Part shown: positions 6,737 to 52,595 of the stretch, piece after piece
Layout of the letters: every line of letters starts with the position of its first letter
How positions within the stretch are numbered: position 1 is the stretch's first letter
Assembly: GCA_024398475.1 (NCBI GenBank)
Contig: JAKSJB010000007.1
Location: forward strand, 1 to 64,000
Reading direction: 5' to 3'
Source: Bacteroidaceae bacterium
GTDB lineage: Bacteria; Bacteroidota; Bacteroidia; Bacteroidales; Bacteroidaceae
DNA length: 64,000 nt
Program-made: the position numbers and the translations under genes
The notes under the pieces: generated by a model
What the model was told of the DNA's origin: nothing
Seen by the model: only the letters and a program-made list of their open reading frames with translations
Database searches by the model: none

Positions 6737-6760
6737 TTGCCATCCGGACGGTCACTCGTA

Positions 6761-7000
6761 GACTTGTTGACTCGTAGACTTGTTGACTCATAGACTTGCT
6801 GACTCATTGACTTGTTGACTCATAGACTTGTTGACTTGTTGACTCGTAGACTTGTTGACTCATTGACTTGTAGACTCATAGACTTGTTGACTCATAGACT
6901 TGTTGACTCATAGACTTGTTGACTCATAGACTTGTTGACTCGTAGACTTGTTGACTTGTAGACTCGTTGACTTGTAGACTTGTTGACTTGTAGACTACTA
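6761..7000. repeat. octamer tandem array, 30 exact-phase units GACT[TC][GA]T[TA]
   Basis: Thirty uninterrupted 8-bp units (GACTTGTT, GACTCATA, GACTCGTA, GACTTGTA and close variants) fill 240 bp with no phase slip. The last unit is GACTACTA. The array ends 18 bp before the GH3 start, so it occupies almost all the space where that gene's promoter should be. I found no TAnnTTTG box in the gap 6681-7018. A shorter inverted copy lies at 19178-19241. Confidence 0.95.
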
Positions 7001-14579: not shown

Positions 14580-15826
14580 GTTTAGCAAAATTCATAGCAC
14601 GTCGCATCTATACTGACAGGAATGCGGAACAGAACGAAATATCCCGCCCTGCCATTCAGATTGCTCTGCTCGGTATTATCATCGGTACAGCCGTGATGAT
14701 ATTGAGCATTGCTGTCATTATGGGGTTCAAGCAGCAGATTACCAAGAAAATATCCGGATTCGGTTCCCACATACAGGTCGTTTCGCTCACCCGCAATGTC
14801 GACAACGAACTCATGCCCGTGCTCACCACCGACAGTCTGAAGAAGGTAGTGATGAGCACCCCCAACATAAGCCATGTGCAGCGATATGCCGACATGATGG
14901 GCATGGTGAAGACCGAAGACGACTTTCTCGGAATCCAGTTCAAGGGAATAGGCGAAGACTACGACACCACCTTCCTGCATGAGAATCTTGTGGAAGGACA
15001 CATGCCACCGTTCTCAGCCAAGGAATCCTCAGGCAGCCTCGTAATATCCCGCTATATAGCCGATAAACTCCATCTCAGCCTCGGCGACAAGGCATACACC
15101 TATTTCATCACACCTACTGGAATGCGTGCCCGCAAGTTCAGCATAGAAGGAATCTACCAGACCAACCTCTCCGAGTACGACAAGTCAACCGTCATAACCG
15201 ACATCTTCACCATCCGACGGCTCCACAACTGGAACGAAGACCAGTCCACCGCATTTGAAATATACACCAAGGACTTCGGAAAGGTGAAGGAAACAACCGA
15301 CCTGCTGGTCGAAAAGGTAAACCACCGTACAGACCGCGACGGCTGCACCTATGGCGCATTCCACATCAAGGAACTTGCCCCCAACATCTTCTCATGGCTG
15401 GGCGTACTCGACATGAACGTAGTCATCATCCTCGTGCTGATGATACTCGTAGCCACGGTCACCATAATGTCAGGATTGCTCATCATCATGCTCGAACAAG
15501 TAAGCATGATAGGACTCCTGAAAGCCCTGGGAGCAACCAACTCATCAGTACGCAGCATATTTATCCACTTCGGATTCAAGATGGTAGTAAAAGGAGTAGT
15601 CATAGGCAACATCGTGGCACTCATTCTCGCCGCCCTTCAATACTACACCCACATCGTGAGCCTTGATGCCGAAGCCTATTACATAGATTCCGTACCGATC
15701 CAGTTCCACTGGCTCTATTTCCTGCTCATAGATGCCGCCACCCTGCTCGTCACATATATCGTCGTAGTAGGATCCACCCATCTCGTATCCATCAGCAAGC
15801 CAGCCCAGGCACTCCGGTTCGAATAG
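14576..15826 (+). CDS. FtsX/LolC-type ABC transporter permease
   Basis: 416 residues with one N-terminal membrane helix (IALLGIIIGTAVMILSIAVI), a large periplasmic MacB-like domain, and three C-terminal helices: the pattern of LolC/LolE. The end motif THLVSISKPAQALRFE is typical of this group in Bacteroidota. Such permeases move lipoproteins or other envelope substrates. No LolD-type ATPase is adjacent, so the partner is elsewhere or unknown. The ATG overlaps the aminotransferase stop by 4 bp. Confidence 0.85.
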   Translation: MSLAKFIARRIYTDRNAEQNEISRPAIQIALLGIIIGTAVMILSIAVIMGFKQQITKKISGFGSHIQVVSLTRNVDNELMPVLTTDSLKKVVMSTPNISHVQRYADMMGMVKTEDDFLGIQFKGIGEDYDTTFLHENLVEGHMPPFSAKESSGSLVISRYIADKLHLSLGDKAYTYFITPTGMRARKFSIEGIYQTNLSEYDKSTVITDIFTIRRLHNWNEDQSTAFEIYTKDFGKVKETTDLLVEKVNHRTDRDGCTYGAFHIKELAPNIFSWLGVLDMNVVIILVLMILVATVTIMSGLLIIMLEQVSMIGLLKALGATNSSVRSIFIHFGFKMVVKGVVIGNIVALILAALQYYTHIVSLDAEAYYIDSVPIQFHWLYFLLIDAATLLVTYIVVVGSTHLVSISKPAQALRFE

Positions 15827-15915
15827 ACCGTCACAGTTTTTCATAGAACATAATTAAGCACATAAAAAGGGACCTTGAGTCATACAACAGACCCAAAGCC
15901 CCCGAATCGCTCAGT

Positions 15916-15928
15916 GCGGTTTAACCGC
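15916..15928. other. small palindrome GCGGTTTAACCGC
   Basis: A 13-bp inverted repeat between the permease gene and the remnant at 15934. It could be part of a terminator for either strand, but no clear T-run follows on the plus strand. Confidence 0.3.
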
Positions 15929-15933
15929 AGATT

Positions 15934-16038
15934 TTAGAAACCACCGCCGAATCCACCTTCGTCGTCATCATCGTCATCCGTGTTGCTTCCCGAGTTGCCA
16001 CCGTTGTCAGTATTAGTGCCGGCACCACCGTGCCCCAC
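15934..16038 (-). pseudogene. remnant: Gly-rich, poly-Asp tail like Bacteroidota HU-type DNA-binding proteins
   Basis: On the minus strand a frame ending at TAA 15934-15936 encodes a Gly/Asn/Ser-rich run, then six Asp plus Glu, then GGFGGGF. Such tails end the longer HU-like proteins common in Prevotella and Bacteroides. Reading upstream, the frame meets a TGA within about 12 codons of the Gly-rich run, so only the tail is left. I infer a decayed gene. The assignment rests on composition only. Confidence 0.4.
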
Positions 16039-16208
16039 ACTAAAAATCGATGAATAAATACTGCAGAATCAGCAATTTGTCCTGACAGGCGAGTCCAGCA
16101 AGCATTGAATCAATATGGTATTGGACAAAATCCATCGGCTGCGATTCGCAATCCCTTGACATCGCTGAAAAAAATGTGCTGTGGAATAGAAGTAAATCGG
16201 AGAAAACA

Positions 16209-16239
16209 TTGCAGAAAAATTTATAAAAGTGTATCTTTG
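16209..16239 (+). promoter_or_regulatory. promoter TTGC-N19-TATCTTTG
   Basis: A good Bacteroidota promoter (-7 TATCTTTG at 16232-16239; TTG of -33 at 16209). It would drive the reductase gene with a leader of about 230 nt that includes the short ORF at 16326. Confidence 0.6.
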
Positions 16240-16325
16240 CAGATGCAAACTGCAAAACTAATTAAATAATCAATCAAATAATAAATTAAAACGATTCAAT
16301 CAATTCAATCAGGGAGAATGCTATT

Positions 16326-16439
16326 ATGGGTGTGAAGATTGGTTCCACAGCGGGATACATGTATATGGACATGTGGGTGTTGGCGAGTATCATTCAGTTG
16401 GGAACTTTCAACTTCTGCCGTCGTCCGAAACGAGGATAG
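16326..16439 (+). pseudogene. 37-residue ORF, possible remnant of a four-helix-bundle family protein
   Basis: ATG 16326 with a purine-rich GGGAGA 8-13 bp upstream; TAG at 16437-16439. The product includes YMYMDMWVLASIIQLGTFNF then CRR. This resembles, from memory, the start of four-helix-bundle (suffix) proteins of Bacteroidota, which continue for about 100 further residues missing here. The frame stops at once after CRRPKRG. It is either a truncated copy or a real small leader peptide of the reductase gene. Family recall is uncertain. Confidence 0.35.
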
Positions 16440-16479
16440 GGTGGCGCTTTGGATTAATTTCAACTGTAGTAAATAATTG

Positions 16480-18345
16480 ATGAATGGTATGAAAATTACT
16501 ATCAAAAGAATTTGTGCTGTACTGGCTTGGTGTGCCTTGGCGGTTCTGTGTGTCTGCTTCTACAATGTTGTTTCGCACAGCAGGAAGCATTATGTGAAAG
16601 ACGGCACGTATGTCACTTGCTCGGAGAGTTTCGGCTGGAACGGACTGCTGACGTGCAAGGTTACTTTCAGGGATTGCAGGATTGCTGATATTGATGTTGT
16701 TGAAGAGTTTGATACCCAAACGTCTGATATTGGCCTGATGGCTTTCGAAAGGTTTATTCCAAGACTGATTGAGACTCAGGACCTGGGGGTTGACTGTGTG
16801 ACGGGTGCTACCTACACTTCACAGGCTATACGTCAATGTGTAGCGGATGCTATTGGAATGGCTGGCGGCAACAGCAAGGACTGGTATCAGAAGATTGAAA
16901 AAACGAATAATAGAAGGGTACATCTGGATGGTTATGACGTGATTGTTGTCGGATTGGGCGGTTCGGGCATATATGCCTATGCGGCGGCTGCTTATTCGGG
17001 GGCAAAGGTGTTCGGATTGGAGAAGACTGCAAAATTGGGCGGACAGTCTGCTACGGTTTCCGGTCCGATGGCTATAGGGTCGGTCAATGCGGCGGACCTG
17101 TTCGGAAAGAGTGGTGTTGATTCTGAGGACCTCTATGATGTGTGGGTGGATTATGCGGGACTCTCTAAGGCGGATGTCATCAGGCAGGCAATAGGCAAAT
17201 CGGGAACGGCTCTCGACTTTTACATGGATAACTATGGTGTCGGTCTGCTGCGTGCGGGAGCTTCGCTGACTAATCCTGGATGGGATAGACTGTGGTATGT
17301 TTTCATGCCTGACACTACTATGGTTTCGACCACCCGAAACAAGACTTATCTGTTCCGTAATATGATGGAAAAGGCTGTTTCTGCCGGCAAGGACAATCGC
17401 TATGAACTGGAAATGACTGCCAAGTCTCTTATCATGGATGGAAACGACAGCATTCGTGGTGTGTTGGCTGAGAAAAATGACGGCACTCTGTATGAAATCT
17501 ACGGCAGAAACATTATCCTTGCTACTGGTGGATATATCGGAAATCCGGAAATGGTGAAGAAGAACCTGGGTTGTATGCCCAAGACTATGGCTTATACGGT
17601 CAACGACGGAGCGGGCATCAATATGGCTGTCGAGGCAGGGGCTGCCACATATAACATTTCTGTTCCTCCGATTATTCATGTCGTTCAGGTACCGAACATC
17701 ATCAGGAACGATGACCTGACTGCCGAACAGAAAAGTATTCTGTCGGCTATGGCTCTTGCCAAAAATCAGATTTGTGTTACGGTGAGGGGTGAGATATGGA
17801 ATGCCGAAGATCCTATATGCCTTGCTCCTGGTTTCATGTATTATGTGCTTTTCCCAAAATCTCAGATTGAACGGTTCAAGACGGCTGGGTTGCCTGAGAG
17901 TTATGCGAGGAATGTGCCTCACATATTGTGTCAGTCGGGGTCTTCGACGGTCCAGGTGGGCAAACCGGTCAAGTCGCTTGATGCCATTTTGAAAATGGGT
18001 ATCAAATATGGTGATGTGCTAAGGGCTGGATCTGTTGCTCAACTTGCAAAACTGATAGGGTGTTCGGCTGATACGCTTTCTATGTCACTTAAGGGTTTTG
18101 ATACTGAATTCTATGCTGTGATTGCTGCTGGGTATTCTTATGGTACTGCGGGGGGGCTTGATGTGGATGTCAACTGCAATGTGCTTGATACGCATGGAAA
18201 ACCTATTCCGAATCTGTATGCTGTGGGCAATGACTGTCTGGGAGTGGAGAATGCTGCCGGCAAACCTTATACTCCATGGGGTGGACAGGCTCATTCCTGG
18301 GCAATGACTTCAGGGTATATAGCGGGTATGCATGCTGCCAGGTAG
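16480..18345 (+). CDS. membrane-anchored FMN/FAD flavoprotein reductase (fumarate/urocanate reductase-like)
   Basis: 621 residues. An N-terminal membrane anchor (about 11-31) is followed by an FMN-binding domain (about 38-130) with the flavinylation motif TGATYT, Thr111 being the expected covalent FMN site (ApbE substrate). Then comes an FAD-dependent reductase domain starting YDVIVVGLGGSG (about 148) and ending GGQAHSWAMTSGYIAG. This is the layout of extracytoplasmic fumarate, urocanate or methacrylate-type reductases that take electrons from the membrane. The substrate is unknown. I use ATG 16480; a TTG directly before and an ATG at 16489 are alternatives. No ApbE or cytochrome partner is in the window. 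Confidence 0.82.
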   Translation: MNGMKITIKRICAVLAWCALAVLCVCFYNVVSHSRKHYVKDGTYVTCSESFGWNGLLTCKVTFRDCRIADIDVVEEFDTQTSDIGLMAFERFIPRLIETQDLGVDCVTGATYTSQAIRQCVADAIGMAGGNSKDWYQKIEKTNNRRVHLDGYDVIVVGLGGSGIYAYAAAAYSGAKVFGLEKTAKLGGQSATVSGPMAIGSVNAADLFGKSGVDSEDLYDVWVDYAGLSKADVIRQAIGKSGTALDFYMDNYGVGLLRAGASLTNPGWDRLWYVFMPDTTMVSTTRNKTYLFRNMMEKAVSAGKDNRYELEMTAKSLIMDGNDSIRGVLAEKNDGTLYEIYGRNIILATGGYIGNPEMVKKNLGCMPKTMAYTVNDGAGINMAVEAGAATYNISVPPIIHVVQVPNIIRNDDLTAEQKSILSAMALAKNQICVTVRGEIWNAEDPICLAPGFMYYVLFPKSQIERFKTAGLPESYARNVPHILCQSGSSTVQVGKPVKSLDAILKMGIKYGDVLRAGSVAQLAKLIGCSADTLSMSLKGFDTEFYAVIAAGYSYGTAGGLDVDVNCNVLDTHGKPIPNLYAVGNDCLGVENAAGKPYTPWGGQAHSWAMTSGYIAGMHAAR

Positions 18346-18401
18346 GCTTATTACTTTCGTACTGGTGTGTGGTGGAATGTAATGGGAATTTGTGATTGTT
18401 T

Positions 18402-18632
18402 TCAGCGTTTCAGAATTCTCCTGATGCTTATTCCCATGGCTGCGGCCAACAGGAGGGTGAAGAGTATCTTGGAGTAGAGGGGGTCGGAATGGAACCAGAA
18501 GTAGGGTTGGGGCATTCCGAAGAAGCGGAGTAGGAGCATGAATCCGCGGAACATGAGTTGACCGACTGCTTCCAGTAGGAAGAAGTTGACGAGGAATATG
18601 ATTACTTCATTGTCGGTCTTTACGAGTTTCAT
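18402..18632 (-). CDS. small membrane protein of unknown function
   Basis: 76 residues from ATG 18632 (MKLVKTDNEV), with two hydrophobic segments (IIFLVNFFLLEAVGQLMF; ILFTLLLAAAMGISI) and a basic end (RRILKR). A longer frame reaches back 26 residues, but that part is basic and unlike a protein start. The gene is convergent with the reductase gene. I do not recognise a family; codon-wise it looks real. Confidence 0.55.
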   Translation of the reverse strand: MKLVKTDNEVIIFLVNFFLLEAVGQLMFRGFMLLLRFFGMPQPYFWFHSDPLYSKILFTLLLAAAMGISIRRILKR

Positions 18633-18686
18633 GGGTGCAAATCTATGCAAAATTATCTTATTACGCGTTTTTCTTTGACAAAAAGT

Positions 18687-18717
18687 TTTGTTATTAACCA
18701 ATAATAGCATATCTTTG
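18687..18717 (+). promoter_or_regulatory. consensus promoter TTTG-N19-TATCTTTG for the TM2 gene
   Basis: -33 TTTG at 18687-18690, 19-bp spacer, -7 TATCTTTG at 18710-18717; a textbook Bacteroidota promoter. The leader to ATG 18798 is about 75 nt. Confidence 0.8.
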
Positions 18718-18797
18718 CAATGATTAATCGTGTTTTTGCAACAGATATAGCATATAAAAGAAATTTTATTATTAACTCCTAATTAAATTACCAACTT

Positions 18798-19019
18798 ATG
18801 AGGAATAGAACAACTGCTGCTATCCTGGCAATTATTCTTGGTGCATATGGTGCACAGAAATTTTATATCGGCGAAATGAATAAGGGCTGGCTGTATCTGA
18901 TAGTAACTATCGTTACGTGTCATATTGCCGGTGTCATCTTCTGGGTTCTGTCATTGATTGAAGGTATCAAGTGGCTGCAGATGACTGACGAGGAATTCGA
19001 GGCTTCGTTTGAAAATTAA
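18798..19019 (+). CDS. TM2 domain-containing protein
   Basis: 73 residues with two membrane helices joined by a short turn and the TM2 hallmark ILGAYGAQKFYIGEMNKGW, then a C-terminal acidic tail (TDEEFEASFEN). TM2 proteins are small inner-membrane proteins of unknown job. It is a single-gene unit with its own promoter and a strong terminator at 19079. Confidence 0.9.
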   Translation: MRNRTTAAILAIILGAYGAQKFYIGEMNKGWLYLIVTIVTCHIAGVIFWVLSLIEGIKWLQMTDEEFEASFEN

Positions 19020-19038
19020 TTCTGCTCGGTTTATTTGG

Positions 19039-19063
19039 TTGTATGGGTAGGTTGTCCATACAA
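19039..19063. other. inverted repeat TTGTATGG / CCATACAA
   Basis: A perfect 8-bp stem with a 9-nt loop, 20 bp after the TM2 gene and just before its terminator. It may add to RNA 3'-end structure. Confidence 0.4.
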
Positions 19064-19078
19064 TTATGATGAGTATAG

Positions 19079-19116
19079 GACAGGCATGTGTTGGTTCATG
19101 TCTGTCTTTTTGTTTT
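19079..19116 (+). terminator. intrinsic terminator after the TM2 gene
   Basis: Stem GACAGGCATG / CATGTCTGTC (one G-T pair), 8-nt loop, then TTTTTGTTTT. Confidence 0.85.
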
Positions 19117-19142
19117 AGGAGTCAGTAGGTGGAGAGGGGAGA

Positions 19143-19175
19143 GTAGCCTTTAGCCTTTAGCCATTGGCCATTGGC
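19143..19175. repeat. heptamer array, second copy
   Basis: GTAGC, CTTTAGC, CTTTAGC, CATTGGC, CATTGGC: the same 7-bp units as at 6695-6736, in the same orientation, again followed by octamers. Confidence 0.85.
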
Positions 19176-19177
19176 TT

Positions 19178-19241
19178 TTTGAGTCTACAAGTCAACGGGT
19201 CTACAAGTCAACAAGTCTACAAGTCAACAAGTCAACGAATT
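19178..19241. repeat. octamer array, second copy, inverted
   Basis: Units TACAAGTC, AACGGGTC, TACAAGTC, AACAAGTC, TACAAGTC, AACAAGTC: the reverse complement of the GACTTGTA/GACTTGTT units of 6761-7000. About six clear units and two degenerate ends. It lies just beyond the 3' end of the glycosyltransferase gene (minus). Confidence 0.85.
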
Positions 19242-36446: not shown

Positions 36447-39400
36447 CTATTGAATAACGAACTTTATCACACATTCATGACCTTCAGCATCCTTTGCCCT
36501 TGCAATGTAAGTTCCATTTGGCAGTGATACCTTATATGAATTGTTTCCTCCATTCATAGCCAACAGTGATGTGTCCACCTTCTGTCCGGCAAGGCTGTAG
36601 ATAACAAGGTGTGCATCCTGGCGTAATTCGCTCTTTACAATAATGTAGCCATTGATGTAAGCCATGCTCATGGTTCCATCACGTGTAATGACGGATGGTG
36701 CATCAATATCGAGGGCCACTTCTTCCTGAGTCAACTGAACATGTACCGTATCATAAGAACATAATGTATTGCATTTTCCTATTGTGGGTACATTCATTGC
36801 ATAGACAGTATTTGCTCCGTCAGGATAGCGGCCAATCGTCTGATCACCATTGTGAGGACAGTACTGCAGGGTATCAGCCCATGTCTCATCGCTTGCAGTA
36901 AGTACTACAAATGAATGCTCGTTTCCAAGTTTAAATGATGTGTGGAGTTGAGATGTACCAACGTTTTTGTCACACCATACGACACGGTATCCGTAAGGTT
37001 CAATAACCGTAGAGACATCTCCTTTCTCAAATTGGAATTTCTTAGGTTTCTTGATGTTGTCAGAAAGATACATACCAGCAATATCAACACTCTTGTTTGT
37101 TGTGTTGTATAATTCAACCCAGTCTTCCTTGTCGAAATACTCGTTTACATACATTGAATTACCTGCACTTACCTCATTTATTCTAACAGGTACGGCATTG
37201 TCATTCAGCAATTCTTCTTCAGGCAGTTTTTCCCATACGGCAGTATAGTCAAATGTACCAGTTGCCGGAAGTGCAAATATCTGTTCTGTTGATTTAATTG
37301 TACCCTGTGTCTGTGCTGTGTAAGTAAGGGAGGCATCCCACAAAGCATCTGACGATGAAACATCGTTATTATGTACCTCAACAGCAATTAGATTTGCACC
37401 TCGTTTCAACAATGATGCAGGTATTGCTATTGTTTGAGGAAATTGGAAATCATCACAATATTGGGATGCGTACGTGTTGTATTTAATAGTTCCTGAAGGC
37501 ATATTGAACCTACCGACTTCTTTGCCGTTTATATACACCACACAACCATCATCAACGATGAAACTGAGTGTAAATTTATTTTCATCAGTAGGAGTAAAGT
37601 CCAACGTAAAACTCTTGCGGAAATAATATGTATATTTCTTTTCTGCAGTCGTGGTTTTGATAGTTGTTCCAGCCCAAGTTGATGTACCCTTGTAACCAAT
37701 TGGAGCAGTTCCACTGGACCAAGTCTCTGTGTATGTGTCTTTATTCCATTGCTTTCCGTCAAGACTTCCTTTGTCATAATAGTACCATACACTGCTGTTT
37801 CCAAATACATTTTTCTGTTGCGTACCGGAACCAGTAGTCCATCCTACGAACCTGTAACCAGCAGGGGCTTCTGTCCTAATAGTGATAGGAGGGAACAGTT
37901 GTCCGCTAAACTTGTTTGTAGGAACGACCTGATCATTAATCAGAATACGTCCGTCATCAATGTTGCTTTTCAATGTTGCCTTGATTGGAGTCTTGCCGGA
38001 AAGTTTCATACGGGAAAAACTCTTCATTGCACTAATCATGGTATTCTGGCGTGAAGAAGAAAGGTTGTCAATAACCCTATTAGCACTTTCCCAACAGGAT
38101 TCAGTTGAAGTACCCCACCAATCCTGTCTTGTAACTTGATTAAATGCCATATCAGCATAGTCGGCAATCTCTGTCACAATTTCGTTACAACGTGACGGTT
38201 CGAAAATAGAACCGGCAACCACGCAGAACGTATCAATGAACTTTTTCCTGAACTCTTCATTATTAAGCAAATTGAGGAATATCGTTACAAATTCAATTTC
38301 AGCATTCTGTAATTGTTTTCCTGCATATTTACCCATTTGTGCATTGAAAGTATAACGTTGTTCATTTGCAAAAGTAGTAAATGCATTGGACCCTCTGTTG
38401 AATGCGAAATCGAGGTCGAACAAGACAAAACGGAACTTTCCGTTTTCAATTCTTGGACGATACCCCTTGACATTATTATGAGGCCAGTCATCACCACCAA
38501 GATACAATTCAATTGCCATATAGTTGATGAACTCATCAATATCCAGGAGATTCTTAATCTTTTCGTACGATTCTGTATTTGTTGCAGTCTTCGTCAGATT
38601 ATATAATTCCTTGAAAGCATCTTTTGTGCCTTCCATTTGAACATAGTTGGAATCAGGATCTTCTTCAAACTGGTCAATTTCGTCATCATCAAGTCCCCTA
38701 TTGGAATATGCAAAGTGCTTATTGTTTGCTTCGCGTATGTTCAAAACACCATAGAACTGTCCATTTATATAGACGAATGATGGTTTATAACATTGATAAT
38801 CAATATCAATACCAGAGCGGGCAACGATACCCTGCAATAATGCATCTGCTAATTTAAACCTGTTTTCCAATGCACCGTTTCCACCATTACGAATCTGAAG
38901 AGTCTTTGTCTTGACGTATGGCTTTTCTGAGAAGAACGAATAAGGCATGTATTTTAATCCATATACCTTATTAGCCTTTAATTTAAATGAATGTGGTGTC
39001 CAGGCACGACTCCATCCTCCACACATGGACATGTTGACTTCCTGGGCAAAACATACTTCTTTACCGTCTTCGAAATATTCCATGCTTACAGGACGGTCCC
39101 AATCCATGTTCCAATTGCAGTTACCGTTTTGTCCGCGTCCCGGACGACCATTACCTGAACCTTGAACAAATATACCATATTCCTGTCCATTGATATTCTT
39201 ATCATCAGTAACAACTGAAATAATTGGAACGCAGAAATTCTTGTCATTATAGATATATGAACGGGTAACAACATCACTTGGTAGATATCCGTCCTTGAAT
39301 AGACGGAAACGATATGAGGTTGATTTAGCAACACTAAAAATACCGGTTTTACTTGTTGTACCGTTTTTCATGGAAGGTACCGAACCGTTTGTAGTATATC

Positions 39401-40037
39401 TGAGAGTTGCTCCTTCTGGTATATTTACCGATACCTGCAGCGTCCCAGTAAATACCTGTCCGATTTTATCTACAATAGGAGCCTCTAATTGTATTGAAGC
39501 AAATTGGCTGTTATTGTTAGTTGCGCCTAAAGTCTTGGAGGTACTATTAATTGAAGGCTCAGTACACCATCCCCAGGTACTGCCTCCATCCGTCGTACGT
39601 GCGTATGAACAGCGCTTTACGGCTGCAGGATATTCCTGTGATGCAATAAGGTTCCCCTCTTTGTCTGAAACATAGATTGTTCCACCATCCGTGTCAAGTT
39701 TAAAAGGACACTGCGATGTACAATATACATCATTGTGGTCAAACCATATCAAATAATAGCCTTTCTTTTGTACTGTGGCAGAAGTACGGAATTGCCATTT
39801 CTTCAGATTGTTAGCATCATCACTCAACCAAATGCCGAAAATAGATATGTTGGCATCGGTTGGATTATATAGTTCAATGAATCCACCATAGTTCCAAGAA
39901 GGGTCAATTCTTGTATCAATGTTTGCTGGCATTATTTCATTAATAATCAAGTCATTGACAGATGCAGCATGCATCTTTGTTATCGGACTGAAAGTTAGGA
40001 CTGATAAAAATGCTAATGTAGTTAGTAATTTATACAT
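36447..40037 (-). CDS. secreted LTD-CotH kinase-LTD protein with T9SS tail (copy 1)
   Basis: 1,196 residues. Order: signal peptide (to about 25); lamin-tail domain (about 28-170, LIINEIMPANID and FIELYNP); chitobiase-like beta-sandwich (about 190-265); CotH-kinase region (about 280-650) with GGDDWPHNNVKGYR near 512 and FDLDFAFN near 540 as likely catalytic and metal motifs; a repeat-like YRFVGW segment; a beta-sandwich with VDDGCVVYINGKEVGRF; a second lamin-tail domain (about 950-1090, VRINEVSAGNSMYVNEYF); and a C-terminal sorting domain (ending in GTYIARAKDAEGHECVIKF). Inference: an outer-surface protein exported by T9SS that may phosphorylate secreted proteins. It is a tandem paralogue of 40708-44247. 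Confidence 0.85.
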   Translation of the reverse strand: MYKLLTTLAFLSVLTFSPITKMHAASVNDLIINEIMPANIDTRIDPSWNYGGFIELYNPTDANISIFGIWLSDDANNLKKWQFRTSATVQKKGYYLIWFDHNDVYCTSQCPFKLDTDGGTIYVSDKEGNLIASQEYPAAVKRCSYARTTDGGSTWGWCTEPSINSTSKTLGATNNNSQFASIQLEAPIVDKIGQVFTGTLQVSVNIPEGATLRYTTNGSVPSMKNGTTSKTGIFSVAKSTSYRFRLFKDGYLPSDVVTRSYIYNDKNFCVPIISVVTDDKNINGQEYGIFVQGSGNGRPGRGQNGNCNWNMDWDRPVSMEYFEDGKEVCFAQEVNMSMCGGWSRAWTPHSFKLKANKVYGLKYMPYSFFSEKPYVKTKTLQIRNGGNGALENRFKLADALLQGIVARSGIDIDYQCYKPSFVYINGQFYGVLNIREANNKHFAYSNRGLDDDEIDQFEEDPDSNYVQMEGTKDAFKELYNLTKTATNTESYEKIKNLLDIDEFINYMAIELYLGGDDWPHNNVKGYRPRIENGKFRFVLFDLDFAFNRGSNAFTTFANEQRYTFNAQMGKYAGKQLQNAEIEFVTIFLNLLNNEEFRKKFIDTFCVVAGSIFEPSRCNEIVTEIADYADMAFNQVTRQDWWGTSTESCWESANRVIDNLSSSRQNTMISAMKSFSRMKLSGKTPIKATLKSNIDDGRILINDQVVPTNKFSGQLFPPITIRTEAPAGYRFVGWTTGSGTQQKNVFGNSSVWYYYDKGSLDGKQWNKDTYTETWSSGTAPIGYKGTSTWAGTTIKTTTAEKKYTYYFRKSFTLDFTPTDENKFTLSFIVDDGCVVYINGKEVGRFNMPSGTIKYNTYASQYCDDFQFPQTIAIPASLLKRGANLIAVEVHNNDVSSSDALWDASLTYTAQTQGTIKSTEQIFALPATGTFDYTAVWEKLPEEELLNDNAVPVRINEVSAGNSMYVNEYFDKEDWVELYNTTNKSVDIAGMYLSDNIKKPKKFQFEKGDVSTVIEPYGYRVVWCDKNVGTSQLHTSFKLGNEHSFVVLTASDETWADTLQYCPHNGDQTIGRYPDGANTVYAMNVPTIGKCNTLCSYDTVHVQLTQEEVALDIDAPSVITRDGTMSMAYINGYIIVKSELRQDAHLVIYSLAGQKVDTSLLAMNGGNNSYKVSLPNGTYIARAKDAEGHECVIKFVIQ

Positions 40038-40089
40038 GGTTATTTTAGATTGTTTTTGTTATTTTGATTATTTGATTTGAAAAACTTTG

Positions 40090-40097
40090 CAAAGTTA
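40090..40097 (-). promoter_or_regulatory. -7 box TAACTTTG for CotH copy 1
   Basis: Minus strand, about 53 bp before the ATG. The identical box stands before copy 2 at 44301-44308. Confidence 0.5.
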
Positions 40098-40262
40098 CAA
40101 ATAAATATTGAGCAATCATAAATAATTATGTTTTTTTAGTAATAATATGTCTGTTGTCATATTTTCCAATAGTTGTTTATTTGGTTCATCATATATACAA
40201 AAAATGCACATAACTCATTACTGAATTATGTGCAATACAACTATTTGGAGAACTATCTGAGA

Positions 40263-40436
40263 TTAATCTGCAGGATATTTAACACCCCACTCGTTTCTAA
40301 GACTGTCCATCACCTGCATGATTTCGTTGATAATCAATTGAGCCTTAGCAGAACCAGTAACTTAGGAAATCATGCATACTGATAGTATTATCTTCTTCCA
40401 ATCTTTTGCAGAAGAAGAGTATAGTTTCTTTATCAT
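40263..40436 (-). pseudogene. chimeric scar: LTD-protein signal peptide fused to the oxidoreductase 3' end
   Basis: Minus-strand frame from ATG 40436: 24 codons (MIKKLYSSSAKDWKK then a hydrophobic run), an in-frame TAA (40362-40364), then VTGSAKAQLIINEIMQ running without a shift into the last 20 codons of the oxidoreductase (VMDSLRNEWGVKYPAD, stop 40263). The first part is a signal peptide and the start of a lamin-tail protein (LIINEIM as in both CotH proteins). The second part, 40263-40325, is identical to 44474-44536. The joint falls in the shared word GAAATCATGCAG. It is a recombination scar. The rest of 40038-40707 is AT-rich with no gene. Confidence 0.75.
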
Positions 40437-40707
40437 ATAAATAATGCTTATATATTATACTTTATTATTTTGTCCAAGTTAACCTAATTGAAATTCACCA
40501 AACTATGTATTATTATCAAAGTAAGGTATTAAATCAAAAAGTGGCGCAAATTTACGAATAAAAATTGAGATTATTTATGTTTTGTCGCAATTTTTGTGAA
40601 ATGAGACTTTTGAAATGTTATCTATCGGATTTTGTCATAATGTATATGCCCTTTAATTTTAAGTAATTATTCATGGTAACATTCAAATATAACAATGTTA
40701 TACATAA

Positions 40708-43700
40708 TTAATTAACATTGAATTTTACAGAACACTTTTTCCCAACTGAATTTACGATATATGCGATATAGGTTCCCTGAGGTAAGGACAACGGATATGT
40801 ACTACATCCGTCGTGGGTGTTCAATACCGTTGAAATAATTCGCTGACCAGACATAGTTGTTACATACAATTCGATAGTGCTATCAAAATTATTCTTTATC
40901 AGCAAATAATCATGATTATATGCTATACTCATATTTTCGACCTGGGAAACAATTTTTGGGGTAAATATGTCATCAGATATAGATCGTGACTGAATTTGGA
41001 TGGAGTCGTAGGTCGAAATAGAGTTACTCTTGCCTATAGTTGGTCGGTTCATAACATACACACTGTTTGCTCCGTCTGGATATCTGCCTATCGAAAGGTC
41101 TCCTTTGTGCGCACAATACTGCAATGTGTCTGCCCACGTGTTGTCTTCTGAAGTCAATACCACAAAGGCATCTTCATTTGCCAATTTGAAGGATGCGTGC
41201 AATTGCTGTCCCATACTCTCATTCTTATCACACCATACAATCCTGTGTCCGAATGGTTCGATAACAGTAATTGCTGAACCCTTTTCAAACTGGAATTTCT
41301 GAGGTTTCATTATATTATCGGAGAGATACATTCCAGCAATATCAATGCTTTTATCTGTAGTGTTGTATAATTCTATCCAGTCTTCCTTATCAAAATATTC
41401 GTTGATATAGATGGAATTTCCTGCACTAATTTCATTGATTCTGACAGGTACAATTCCACTATCAGTTATTTCATTATCGGAAAGATGCTCATATACTGCA
41501 GTTAAGTACATGTCTTCACTTGAAGGCAATACAAATGTCTCATCCGTTGATACAAATAAGTCACTACTACTGTTATCAGTATATAATAATGATGCATCCC
41601 AATATGCATCGGATGATTGTGCTTGATTATTATGTATCTCAACTGCTATGACATTGCTTCCTTTCTTAAATAAGGTGCCTGATAATTCAATAGTTTGTGG
41701 AAATGAGAACTGATCAGAATGGGTAGAAGCATAAGTACTGTATTTGATGGTTCCTGATGGCATGTTGAATCTTCCGGCTTCCTTACCATTTACGTATATT
41801 ACACATCCATCATCAACAGTGAAGTTTAATGTAAATACGTCTGATGCTGATGGTGTATTTGCTAGATTGAAAGACTTTCGCATGTAATATGTTGACAATC
41901 TATGCTTAACTTCGCTTTTTACCCCCGGCCATGAAGAACCTTCAACATAACCAATAGGGGCATTACCGTTTTTCCATGATAAAACAGAGTATGAAGATGA
42001 ATACCATGCTTTTCCGTCAAGACTACCACTGTCATAGTAATACCATGATGAGCCAGTATCAAATGCTTCCTTCCTAAGATTTTTTAAAGATTGCCACCCT
42101 TTGAATCTATATTCCTGTGGGGCTTTTGCAGATGTCGTAACTGGAGGAAACAGTTTGCCGTCGAATTTATTCGTAGGAACCTGTAGACCGTTTATACCAA
42201 TTCTGGCATCCTCGATATTGGAATTGAGCGAAACGTTAATAGGCTGAATATTTGACAGTTTCATCTTAGAATAACTCTTTATCGCATTTATCATAGTTGC
42301 CTGCCTTGATGAAGAAAACGTACTCTTTACGTTATTGGCACTACCCCACGGACTTTCTCCAATCTGACTCATTGCTTTGTATGCTCTGTTTGCCAATTCG
42401 TCCACGATATCACTACATCGTTTCGGTTCAAAGACAGAACCGACAACCATACAGAACGTATCGATGAACTGCTTGCGAAAGTTGTCATTTGCGAGCAGAT
42501 TCAACCATATCGTCGTAAGTTCCATTTCCTTATACATCGACGTGCCGGTATCATACATATAATCCAGCGTCTGCCATCTTGTATTTTCCAAATCATGGAA
42601 TTGGTTAGTTCCGCCAAAACTATCGAGGTCCATCAGTACAATACGGAACTTACCACCATCTATCCTAGGCCTATACCCCTTCACATTATTACTGTTGTTC
42701 AGCCAATCACTGCCTCCGAGATACATTTCAACAGCCATATAATTAATAAATTCATCAATGTCGAGCAATTGCTTAATCTGTTCGTATATATCTTCATTTG
42801 CCGCTTTTTTAGAAAGAGAGTACAATTCTTCGAAAGCATCACGTGTACCTTCCATTTGGACATATCCGGAATCTGGAGAATATTCAAACTGATCCATTTC
42901 ATCGTCATCAAGTCCTTTGTTTGCATAAGCGAAATGCTTGTTGTTAGGTTCGCGGATGTTAAGAATATCATAAAGGGAACCATTGATATATACAAATGCC
43001 GGAATGTAAGATTGACAGTCAACATCAATACCTGACCTTGCAACGATTTCATGAATCAAGGCATCATTCATCTTACTCCCATTGTCATTCCCGCCATTAC
43101 GCACATGCAGAGTCTTGTTCTTGTTGAATGGCTTGTTTGGGAAAAAAGCATATGGAAGATAGTTCAAACCGTACAGTTTGTTAGCCTTCAACTTGAAAGA
43201 ATGAGGTGACCATGCACGACTCCATCCTCCAACAGCAGACATATTGACTTCCTGTGTCAAACAAACCTCCTGACCGTTCTCAAAATATTCAAAATTTACA
43301 GGACGGTCCCAATCCATGTTCCAGTTGCATGCACTACTCTGTCCCCTACCCGAACGGCCATTACCTGAACCTCGGACAAAAATACCATATTCCTGTCCAT
43401 TGATATTTTTATCATCAGTAACAATAGAAATAATTGGAATGCAGAAATTCTTGTCATTATAGATATACGAACGGGTAACAACATCACTTGGCAGATAACC
43501 ATCCTTGAATAGACGGAAACGATATGAGGTTGATTTAGTAACACTAAAAATACCGGTTTTACTTGTTGTACCGTTTTTCATGGAAGGTACCGAACCGTTT
43601 GTAGTATATCTGAGAGTTGCTCCTTCTGGTATATTTACCGATACCTGCAGCGTCCCAGTAAATACCTGTCCGATTTTATCTACAATAGGAGCCTCTAATT

Positions 43701-44247
43701 GTATTGAAGCAAATTGGCTGTTATTGTTAGTTGCGCCTAAAGTCTTGGAGGTACTATTAATTGAAGGCTCAGTACACCATCCCCAGGTACTGCCTCCATC
43801 CGTCGTACGTGCGTATGAACAGCGCTTTACGGCTGCAGGATATTCCTGTGATGCAATAAGGTTCCCCTCTTTGTCTGAAACATAGATTGTTCCACCATCC
43901 GTGTCAAGTTTAAAAGGACACTGCGATGTACAATATACATCATTGTGGTCAAACCATATCAAATAATAGCCTTTCTTTTGTACTGTGGCAGAAGTACGGA
44001 ATTGCCATTTCTTCAGATTGTTAGCATCATCACTCAACCAAATGCCGAAAATAGATATGTTGGCATCGGTTGGATTATATAGTTCAATGAATCCACCATA
44101 GTTCCAAGAAGGGTCAATTCTTGTATCGATGTTTGCCGGCATAATTTCATTAATAATCAGATCATTGACAGATGCAGCCTGCATCTTAGTTATTGGACTG
44201 AAAGTTAGGAGTGATATAAATGCTAATATGGTTCGTAATTTATTCAT
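40708..44247 (-). CDS. secreted LTD-CotH kinase-LTD protein with T9SS tail (copy 2)
   Basis: 1,179 residues with the same order as copy 1: signal peptide; lamin-tail domain; beta-sandwich; CotH region; second beta-sandwich (VDDGCVIYVNGKEAGRF); second lamin-tail domain (VRINEISAGNSIYINEYF); sorting domain ending GTYIAYIVNSVGKKCSVKF. Residues about 21-236 are identical to copy 1. In the CotH core the first motif reads GGSDWLNNSNNVKGYR (an insertion, and the first Asp and the His of copy 1 are lost) and the second MDLDSFGGT instead of FDLDFAFNRG, so activity may differ. Promoter at 44301. Upstream is the intact oxidoreductase. Confidence 0.85.
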   Translation of the reverse strand: MNKLRTILAFISLLTFSPITKMQAASVNDLIINEIMPANIDTRIDPSWNYGGFIELYNPTDANISIFGIWLSDDANNLKKWQFRTSATVQKKGYYLIWFDHNDVYCTSQCPFKLDTDGGTIYVSDKEGNLIASQEYPAAVKRCSYARTTDGGSTWGWCTEPSINSTSKTLGATNNNSQFASIQLEAPIVDKIGQVFTGTLQVSVNIPEGATLRYTTNGSVPSMKNGTTSKTGIFSVTKSTSYRFRLFKDGYLPSDVVTRSYIYNDKNFCIPIISIVTDDKNINGQEYGIFVRGSGNGRSGRGQSSACNWNMDWDRPVNFEYFENGQEVCLTQEVNMSAVGGWSRAWSPHSFKLKANKLYGLNYLPYAFFPNKPFNKNKTLHVRNGGNDNGSKMNDALIHEIVARSGIDVDCQSYIPAFVYINGSLYDILNIREPNNKHFAYANKGLDDDEMDQFEYSPDSGYVQMEGTRDAFEELYSLSKKAANEDIYEQIKQLLDIDEFINYMAVEMYLGGSDWLNNSNNVKGYRPRIDGGKFRIVLMDLDSFGGTNQFHDLENTRWQTLDYMYDTGTSMYKEMELTTIWLNLLANDNFRKQFIDTFCMVVGSVFEPKRCSDIVDELANRAYKAMSQIGESPWGSANNVKSTFSSSRQATMINAIKSYSKMKLSNIQPINVSLNSNIEDARIGINGLQVPTNKFDGKLFPPVTTSAKAPQEYRFKGWQSLKNLRKEAFDTGSSWYYYDSGSLDGKAWYSSSYSVLSWKNGNAPIGYVEGSSWPGVKSEVKHRLSTYYMRKSFNLANTPSASDVFTLNFTVDDGCVIYVNGKEAGRFNMPSGTIKYSTYASTHSDQFSFPQTIELSGTLFKKGSNVIAVEIHNNQAQSSDAYWDASLLYTDNSSSDLFVSTDETFVLPSSEDMYLTAVYEHLSDNEITDSGIVPVRINEISAGNSIYINEYFDKEDWIELYNTTDKSIDIAGMYLSDNIMKPQKFQFEKGSAITVIEPFGHRIVWCDKNESMGQQLHASFKLANEDAFVVLTSEDNTWADTLQYCAHKGDLSIGRYPDGANSVYVMNRPTIGKSNSISTYDSIQIQSRSISDDIFTPKIVSQVENMSIAYNHDYLLIKNNFDSTIELYVTTMSGQRIISTVLNTHDGCSTYPLSLPQGTYIAYIVNSVGKKCSVKFNVN

Positions 44248-44300: not shown

Positions 44301-44308
44301 CAAAGTTA
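44301..44308 (-). promoter_or_regulatory. -7 box TAACTTTG for CotH copy 2
   Basis: Minus strand, 54 bp before the ATG, in the same context as copy 1. Confidence 0.5.
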
Positions 44309-44473
44309 CAAATAAAAATTAATCAATCATAAATAATTGCGTTTTTTTAGTATTAATATGTCTGTTGTCATATTTTCCAATAGTTGTTTATTTGGTTCAT
44401 CATATATACAAAAAATGCACATAACTCATTACTGAATTATGTGCAATACAACTATTTGGAGAACTATCTGAGA

Positions 44474-45499
44474 TTAATCTGCAGGATATTTAACACCCCA
44501 CTCGTTTCTAAGACTGTCCATCACCTGCATGATTTCAATTGTCTCGCTGTGAGGCATAAACGGCGATTCAGTCCTACCGTTTCTGATGGCATCCAGGCAA
44601 GCCAGTACTTCATACTCATATCCCGTGGATTGTTCCTTTGGAGGATAGAATGTTTCAACAGCCTTGTAATCGTGGTACAATGTCACTTTTTCAGGACAGT
44701 TGATGTTCTGTACTTCGATATACCCTTTTCTTCCTGCAATCATACCCATACGGTTACACCAACAGCGTACACCAGCCTGAAGGTTTGCCATTCTGCCATC
44801 GTTCCAAAGCATAGTAATTGTTTCGCTGAGGTCAACACCCGACTTACCCTTCACACATGCCGAATGCATGGAAGAATTGCCATTTCCGAAATACATTCTT
44901 GCAAAGTTTATGCTGTAAACACCTAAATCAAGTAATGCACCGCCACACAATTCCGGCCTTTGAATCCGTTCCTTGTCCTCGTTATCGTAGCAGAGGCTTG
45001 CATAGAGCACTTCAGGTTGACCTATAGCGTCATTCTTAAGCAGTTCCGATACCTTATGCGACAGAGGCATACATCTTGTCCATACAGCCTCCATACAGAA
45101 CACACCTTTCCTTTTTGCTGCATCAAGTAGTTCAAGGGCTTCCCGTGTATTTGCCGTAAAAGCCTTTTCCACCAACACATGCTTTCCTGCATTGATAGCC
45201 AACAAGGCATGTTTCAGGTGATGGGAGTGAGGAGTAGCAATATACACCAGTTCCACTTCATTGTCTTCCACTAGTTCCTGATATGAGCCGTATGCTTTCT
45301 GGAATCCCATTTTTTCTGCAAAATCCCTTGCACGTTCAATGTTACGTGCTGCAATCGCATACTTTTCCAACTGTTCACCAGTATCCATTACACCCATTGT
45401 TTTTTGGAGTGCAGATACGGTAGATGATGATTGTAGATTACTTAAGGTTAGTGCCATCTTGTCGGCAATCCAACCAGCACCGATTATTCCGACTTTCAT
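44474..45499 (-). CDS. Gfo/Idh/MocA family oxidoreductase
   Basis: 341 residues. The N-terminal NAD(P)-binding fold starts VGIIGAGWIADKM; YIATPHSHHLKHALLAINAGKHVLVEKAF (here as YIATPHSHH and GKHVLVEKAF) holds the conserved Lys. The C-terminal half is the alpha/beta substrate domain. Probably oxidises or reduces a sugar or inositol-like compound; substrate unknown. It is 26 bp after the threonine aldolase-like gene. Its last 63 bp are duplicated at 40263-40325. Confidence 0.88.
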   Translation of the reverse strand: MKVGIIGAGWIADKMALTLSNLQSSSTVSALQKTMGVMDTGEQLEKYAIAARNIERARDFAEKMGFQKAYGSYQELVEDNEVELVYIATPHSHHLKHALLAINAGKHVLVEKAFTANTREALELLDAAKRKGVFCMEAVWTRCMPLSHKVSELLKNDAIGQPEVLYASLCYDNEDKERIQRPELCGGALLDLGVYSINFARMYFGNGNSSMHSACVKGKSGVDLSETITMLWNDGRMANLQAGVRCWCNRMGMIAGRKGYIEVQNINCPEKVTLYHDYKAVETFYPPKEQSTGYEYEVLACLDAIRNGRTESPFMPHSETIEIMQVMDSLRNEWGVKYPAD

Positions 45500-45525
45500 A
45501 TTCTGATTTGATTATTAATATATTA

Positions 45526-46572
45526 TCAGTAATGTTTCCCAATGGCATTGATTGCCATTATGAGCGAGTCAACCTGATCGTCAGTCGTCGCCCAACTCGT
45601 GCAGAATCTTACCCCAATGTGTTCGCTGTCCACTTTCTGCCAAAGTTCAAAACCAAAGTCCTTTCCCAATGATTCAGCAACATCCTTCGGCAGTATGGGG
45701 AATACCTGATTCGTAGGACTGTCAACAAGGAACCCATAGCCATTCTCCCTGAAAGCATCAGTAAGTCTTGCCGCAAGTTTATCAGCATGAGCAGCCAATT
45801 CATAATACAGGTTGTCCTCAAACAGCACTTCAAACTGAATACCCAATAAACGTCCCTTTGCCAGCATTCCACCATTTTGTTTAATCATGTATCTAAAGTC
45901 ATTCTTTAAGGATTCGTTGTTAATTACCACAGCTTCACCGAATAAAGCACCTTGTTTTGTTTCACCGATATAGAACACGTCAGCAATAGAAGCAATATCC
46001 TTTATGGTTAGGTCACATTCCGATGAAGCCAAACCGTAACCAAGTCGGGCTCCGTCAATAAACAGCGGTATGTTCCATTTATTGCAAACCTTCCTGATTG
46101 CCACCAATTCGTCTTTGGAATATATCGTTCCCAGTTCCGTTGAGAACGAAATATACAGCATTGCAGGCTGAACCATATGTTCAAAAGAAGCATCCTGATG
46201 ATGTTCGGTCAAAGCCTTGTCTACACTTTCAGCACTTATCTTTCCATCTTTTGCGGCAAGAGGAAGAACCTTGTGACCGCTATGCTCAATGGCACCGGTT
46301 TCGTGGCAGTTTATGTGTCCCGATTCAGCACACATCACCCCTTGATGCGGACGGAGTACGGAAGAAATCACAGTAGTGTTTGTCTGAGTTCCGCCTACGA
46401 GAAAATGAACATCAGCATTAGGCGTACCGCAGATACTTCTTATCAACATCCTTGCGCGTTCACAATACTCATCTTCGCCATATCCCGGTGTCTGCACAAG
46501 ATTCGTATCCTGCATTCTCTCCAGTATTGCAGGATGACAACCTTCAAGATAATCGCTATAAAATAAAAACAT
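45526..46572 (-). CDS. threonine aldolase / beta-eliminating lyase family enzyme
   Basis: 348 residues, fold-type I PLP enzyme. FIDGARLGYGLA carries the Asp binding the PLP ring and IGETKQGALFGEA the Schiff-base Lys; FLVGGTQTNTTVI is near the start. It matches low-specificity L-threonine aldolases that cleave threonine to glycine and acetaldehyde, though other substrates are possible. It lies 24 bp after the secreted unknown gene, so the genes from 47472 to 44474 are likely one transcript. Confidence 0.86.
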   Translation of the reverse strand: MFLFYSDYLEGCHPAILERMQDTNLVQTPGYGEDEYCERARMLIRSICGTPNADVHFLVGGTQTNTTVISSVLRPHQGVMCAESGHINCHETGAIEHSGHKVLPLAAKDGKISAESVDKALTEHHQDASFEHMVQPAMLYISFSTELGTIYSKDELVAIRKVCNKWNIPLFIDGARLGYGLASSECDLTIKDIASIADVFYIGETKQGALFGEAVVINNESLKNDFRYMIKQNGGMLAKGRLLGIQFEVLFEDNLYYELAAHADKLAARLTDAFRENGYGFLVDSPTNQVFPILPKDVAESLGKDFGFELWQKVDSEHIGVRFCTSWATTDDQVDSLIMAINAIGKHY

Positions 46573-52554: not shown

Positions 52555-52595
52555 GAAAGCCTCCATAATCAAGTGTACTGATTATGGAGGCTTTC
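52555..52595. terminator. bidirectional terminator between folA and eda
   Basis: A perfect 17-bp stem (52555-52571 with 52579-52595; GAAAGCCTCC at one end) and a 7-nt loop AGTGTAC. It serves both converging genes. Confidence 0.9.

Follow-up and report, generated by a model that had tools for sequence, protein, structure and literature searches.

The minus-strand frame of 58 codons that lies between the tandem genes A and B of the window (the whole stretch of DNA analyzed, 64,000 nucleotides, from a gut bacterium) is probably the original 5′ end of gene A, overwritten by a block copied from the side of gene B. The case is made by the chimeric sequence itself, the identity profile of A and B, the gene orders in relatives, and the loss of the orthologue signal from the 5′ part of A. 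The remnant is read as the own start of A because it lies directly before this gene, on the same strand, and has an architecture like that of the orthologue from Ca. Colivivens caballi; its position thus suggests which gene it once opened. Coordinates of the features are collected in Table 1.

Table 1. Positions of the chimeric frame, its parent genes, and associated features in the window.
Feature	Positions	Strand	Basis or counterpart
LTD start remnant: ATG, signal peptide, A-K-A cleavage site, LIINEIM	40317–40436	-	Translation, LTD starts of relatives, DNA match
Copied oxidoreductase tail EIMQVMDSLRNEWGVKYPAD and stop	40263–40325	-	Original at 44474–44536
Joint GAAATCATGC, run common to the oxidoreductase tail and, judging from relatives, the LTD start	40316–40325	-	
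Perfect inverted repeat of 11 bp, 40 nt loop, foot at the joint	40315–40376	.	Arms 40315–40325 and 40366–40376
Copied intrinsic terminator of the oxidoreductase, hairpin and TTTTTTG	40205–40234	-	Original at 44416–44445
TAACTTTG, possible −7 box (Bacteroidota type) of gene A	40090–40097	-	Same in gene B (44301–44308)
TAAATTTG, possible former −7 box, 110 nt ahead of the remnant ATG	40547–40554	-	
588 bp of A without difference from B, putative recent conversion tract	39330–39917	-	43540–44127 in B
Gene A, LTD–CotH protein, 1196 aa; apparently a B-like 5′ block on the old A body	36447–40037	-	
Gene B, LTD–CotH protein, 1179 aa; its 5′ block, with the DNA upstream, is the presumed donor	40708–44247	-	
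Oxidoreductase of the GFO/IDH/MocA family, complete (341 aa); origin of the tail	44474–45499	-	

The chimeric frame and its joint

Read on the minus strand from 40436 to 40263, the frame has 174 bases, or 58 codons including both stops, and translates as MIKKLYSSSAKDWKKIILSVCMIS, stop, VTGSAKAQLIINEIMQVMDSLRNEWGVKYPAD, stop. The signal peptide MIKKLYSSSAKDWKKIILSVCMIS is followed by TAA, VTGSAKAQLIINEIMQ, and then VMDSLRNEWGVKYPAD with the final stop; VTGSAKAQLIINEIM is placed between the TAA and the residues that reproduce exactly the C terminus of the oxidoreductase upstream. The translation bears out the preliminary description, which had reported a chimeric frame made of a signal peptide, one TAA, and the exact oxidoreductase C terminus; its broader claim, that the start of an LTD gene was cut off and joined in frame to the duplicated oxidoreductase tail at a short homology, is supported as well. 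The in-frame TAA is codon 25, inside the signal peptide, and because of it the remnant is not expected to yield an exported protein. LIINEIM is the LTD start seen in relatives, and the remnant has the N terminus of a PF00932 protein, i.e., a signal peptide and then [LVIM]I[NT]E[IVL]M; since it keeps seven residues of the LTD domain, no profile match is possible.

From the GAA at 40325 down, the DNA equals that of the oxidoreductase gene (from 44536 down), 40326 being the first differing base. The run shared at the joint is seen directly in the oxidoreductase parent; in the LTD parent, whose continuation past the joint is lost, it is deduced from relatives. LTD starts of relatives match the remnant DNA across the joint as far as GAAATCATG or GAAATCATGC, and 27 of 51 distinct starts use GAAATCATG. 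The nearest DNA match at this place (genome G002, locus L161) has TGATTATCAACGAAATCATGC followed by CT, not AG; it reads TGATTATCAACGAAATCATGCCT, and its similarity to the remnant ends after GAAATCATGC. Among the 51 distinct starts, EIM or a variant of it is followed by Ala in 19, Pro in 14, Val in 11, and Ser in 7; because these starts read IMA, IMP, IMV, or IMS, and never IMQ, the Gln at the joint was probably contributed by the oxidoreductase. Both parents had been said to share GAAATCATGCAG. The relatives do not bear out this extent of 12 bases: the run appears to be GAAATCATG(C), 9–10 bases, where GAAATCATG is safely inferred and GAAATCATGC is probable. Of 200,000 position pairs drawn at random from the region, 28 share a run of at least nine bases; if the LTD parent carried the run, its length at the joint exceeds chance.

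The 10-mer occurs three times in the window, that is, in the oxidoreductase gene, at the joint, and once inverted at 40366, 40 nt inside the scar. Perfect 11-bp inverted repeats with loops of 3–60 nt are found twice in the window, at the joint and at 52555–52595. The repeat at the joint folds weakly better than shuffled sequences (z = −1.8; 13 of 200 shuffles fold as well). Its origin by a small inversion was considered and rejected, as the DNA in its current orientation encodes a proper LTD start. Elsewhere in the window, at 6754–6996, there are short direct repeats of 150–180 bp, with spacings of 72 and 88 bp, about 86% alike.

Probable exchange of the front of gene A

Genes A and B form a tandem on the minus strand; both match PF00932 (LTD) and PF08757 (CotH) above the curated cut-offs, and each contains two LTD domains. 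Their similarity varies strongly along the sequence. The oxidoreductase tail and spacer (40143–40325 vs. 44354–44536), with the terminator hairpin and its T run inside them, show no difference in 183 positions; the promoter and signal-peptide stretch (39918–40142) shows 29 listed differences between A and B in 225 positions (~13%); the subsequent 588-bp tract, in the LTD coding part, lacks even synonymous codon differences; 9 of 158 positions differ at 39172–39329; and beyond 39172 the two genes mostly differ by 15–50% per 50-column window. The heterogeneity is highly significant (chi-square p = 1.7e-19; the test entered 28 differences for the 225-bp stretch, for which the list has 29 and three one-base gaps on the A side, the conclusion being unaffected). 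A stretch of identity with sharp edges inside diverged homologues, the mark of gene conversion, is thereby found in A and B. The segment-by-segment profile indicates that the block at about 39172–40325 has a single origin at both places and is mosaic, some of its copies being younger than others. Because the ~13%-different stretch sits between two perfectly identical ones, one event is not enough; later conversion is the likeliest addition; DNA imported from another strain, or copies merged by the assembler, are possible ones.

The promoter region was scanned for TAnnTTTG, taken as the consensus of the −7 promoter box in Bacteroidota. Such boxes are not more frequent than in shuffled sequences (5 vs. 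a mean of 4.55 in locus L157), and a scan for sigma-70-type promoters was uninformative (21 found vs. 21.4 expected).

In Ca. Colivivens caballi (JAGHSZ010000140.1, loci L015 and L144), two LTD–CotH genes, 41 bp apart, precede the same aquaporin gene as in the window. The one nearer the aquaporin is 65% identical to A and has a signal peptide directly followed by VIINEIMP. In the tree of gene bodies, A groups with this aquaporin-side gene (support 100/99), while the orthologue of B itself is left unresolved; the nearest gene compared is 67% identical in the body of A. The signal of this kinship is lost from the 5′ part: at informative sites, i.e., positions where the two caballi genes differ, A sides with its caballi orthologue vs. 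the other gene at a ratio of 168:47 in residues 311–1179 and of 20:21 in residues 24–236, the latter being equal to those of B (Fisher p = 3.6e-4). This loss indicates that the front of gene A was exchanged and the body kept. In residues 237–310, A (89%) and B (86%) are both similar to the caballi A gene, so that the inner boundary of the block cannot be located. The coding sites were also tried as a guide to the direction of copying and set aside, given the 20:21 split and the caballi-A-like residues 237–310 in both genes, which other species share and which may be ancestral. Since the oxidoreductase is complete only in front of B, we infer that the B side was the donor.

Further relatives were compared by gene order. 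Five congeners (loci L147, L148, L149, L150, and L152) have one LTD–CotH gene directly before the aquaporin, and a single LTD–CotH gene interrupted by the contig end is seen in L151. The caballi oxidoreductase is on another contig (L098), adjoining the same aldolase-like gene as in the window. The oxidoreductase and the aldolase-like gene (44474–46572 in the window) are also neighbors in genomes G001 and G008 (L098 and L096), where the stretch fetched around them has no LTD–CotH gene; the link to the LTD pair is seen only in the window.

Adjacent LTD–CotH genes are present in 8 of the 89 loci examined, 6 of these pairs being distinct. Three of the six have a similar or identical 3′ part within otherwise more diverged genes: 849 bp at 100% in L031 (6175–7023 and 10129–10977), 868 bp at 93.5% in L092 (2026–2888 and 5017–5883), and 692 bp at 83% in L050 (10678–11369 and 14745–15433). 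Segmental conversion among such genes, as read from these alignments, is not unique to the genome of the window and appears recurrent in tandem LTD–CotH pairs of Bacteroidales. Judged by titles and the opening parts of abstracts, no literature on gene conversion of LTD–CotH genes in Bacteroidales was found. Locus L038 contains neighboring genes of 733 residues each (14649–16850 and 17008–19209) that share a stretch of 851 bp, 91% alike, in the first 300 codons.

Other origins of the remnant

The preliminary description had proposed that the remnant is what is left of a separate, third LTD gene once located between B and A, whose body disappeared as the duplicated block became attached to the gene start. 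We regard this as unlikely. The signal peptide of the remnant is indeed unlike those of A and B, and the 271 bp between B and the remnant (vs. gaps of −1 to 143 bp in the six distinct pairs of relatives), together with a possible promoter before the remnant, fit a separate gene. However, such a gene requires, apart from its own existence, the loss of its body, of the 3′ spacer, and of the 5′ end of A itself; no triplet of LTD–CotH genes occurs among the 89 loci with their six distinct tandem pairs; and there is no LTD domain outside A and B in the genome of the window, which is 79.6% complete. With the caballi kinship lost from the 5′ block of A in addition, a third gene is not the simplest account, and none is needed, since the displaced start of A itself explains all with one gene fewer. 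The remnant N terminus MIKKLYSSSAKDW has no convincing match in 398 other genomes sampled from the family (best E = 0.012), which is uninformative, as signal peptides lack conservation here even among orthologues (29% identity between A and the caballi gene), and a tblastn search over 94 loci yielded, among the best 25 of 213 matches, chance matches only outside the window's own loci (best E = 0.5). For the same reason, a search with the N terminus was rejected as a test for an intact gene.

An artifact of assembly, with merged strains or repeat copies producing the identical stretches and possibly the joint, is very unlikely. The window does come from a draft genome of 44 contigs and the completeness given above, most public records of relatives are metagenome assemblies, and merged repeat copies could yield exact repeats (588 and 183 bp) flanking a stretch with 13% difference; but the ~10 bases shared at the joint are far shorter than the overlaps used by assemblers, the remnant side of the joint has no second occurrence elsewhere in the genome, and the genome contains no other LTD start from which it could derive. 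Continued use of the frame, either as a small exported peptide produced by stop read-through or as a leader for gene A, is barely credible: it is intact apart from one stop and preceded by a possible promoter, but the TAA falls in the signal peptide with no ATG from there to LIINEIM, a terminator separates the frame from gene A, and the same frame is present in no relative among the 398 other family genomes searched.

Proposed course of events and comparison with known systems

If the scar is the displaced start of gene A, the ancestral order on the minus strand would have been oxidoreductase – gene B – gene A (MIKKLYSSS...LIINEIM...) – aquaporin. During copying or repair, a strand would have left the start of A at the 9–10 shared bases and continued, at a distance of 4.2 kb, on the end of the oxidoreductase gene, and the copied block would have comprised the oxidoreductase tail, the terminator, and the promoter, signal peptide, and LTD domain of gene B, with a return to gene A via homology inside the LTD/CotH coding region, at about residues 237–310. 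Two steps might lead to the same product: a tandem duplication with that joint, and then a deletion caused by recombination of the paralogues with each other. Gene A would thus have been re-headed with the promoter and the exported LTD part of B, the copied terminator shielding it from the previous promoter; its former start would have remained as a 40-codon fossil, with a TAA acquired either before or after the displacement; and later gene conversion would have made the tail and spacer (183 bp) and a coding stretch of 588 bp identical. We infer the order of the steps, the polymerase switch, and the effect on expression from the present arrangement.

According to an excerpt of PMC3161906, inverted repeats are linked to fork stalling; fork stalling or a microhomology template switch at this joint may be offered as a suggestion only. 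The wider proposition, that tandem LTD–CotH genes of Bacteroidales swap entire modules by repeated segmental conversion (the 5′ part in the window, the 3′ part in the three other pairs) and that a fork stalled by the hairpin in the gene start triggered a switch yielding a complete expression and export head of terminator, promoter, signal peptide, and LTD, is distinctly unlikely as a whole.

What makes the case informative is that neither the joint nor the abandoned gene start has been lost from this unusually readable fossil, so that it can be stated what was replaced, by what, and via which short homology. It illustrates how a bacterial gene for an exported protein may exchange promoter, signal peptide, and first domain in one piece, and that segmental conversion acts on tandem LTD–CotH genes.

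The mechanism is of a known kind, and the scar is a clean, well-preserved case, not a new class of system. In Lac amplification of E. coli, as described in the excerpted part of PMC3161906, the 3′ end of a stalled or broken fork anneals at a microhomology and forms a new joint at few shared bases, embedded inverted duplications have 3–30 bp at their joints, and microhomology template switches serve as a model for duplication joints in starving cells. The new joint of the scar, formed at few shared bases, is like the joints of the MMBIR type, or microhomology template-switch joints, in that account. Unlike in the Lac system as excerpted there, the second junction of the block involves homology between the paralogues, and the scar is a fossil, not an experimental product, with the mechanism deduced from the joint only. 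The 588-bp tract without synonymous differences in diverged neighbors resembles segmental conversion of tandem paralogues (concerted evolution); in contrast to the 3′ tracts of the L031, L050, and L092 pairs, however, it occupies the 5′ end, and non-homologous DNA from upstream goes along with it. Compared to other LTD (PF00932)–CotH (PF08757) proteins with signal peptides in Bacteroidales, A and B are ordinary, save for the exchanged 5′ end of A.
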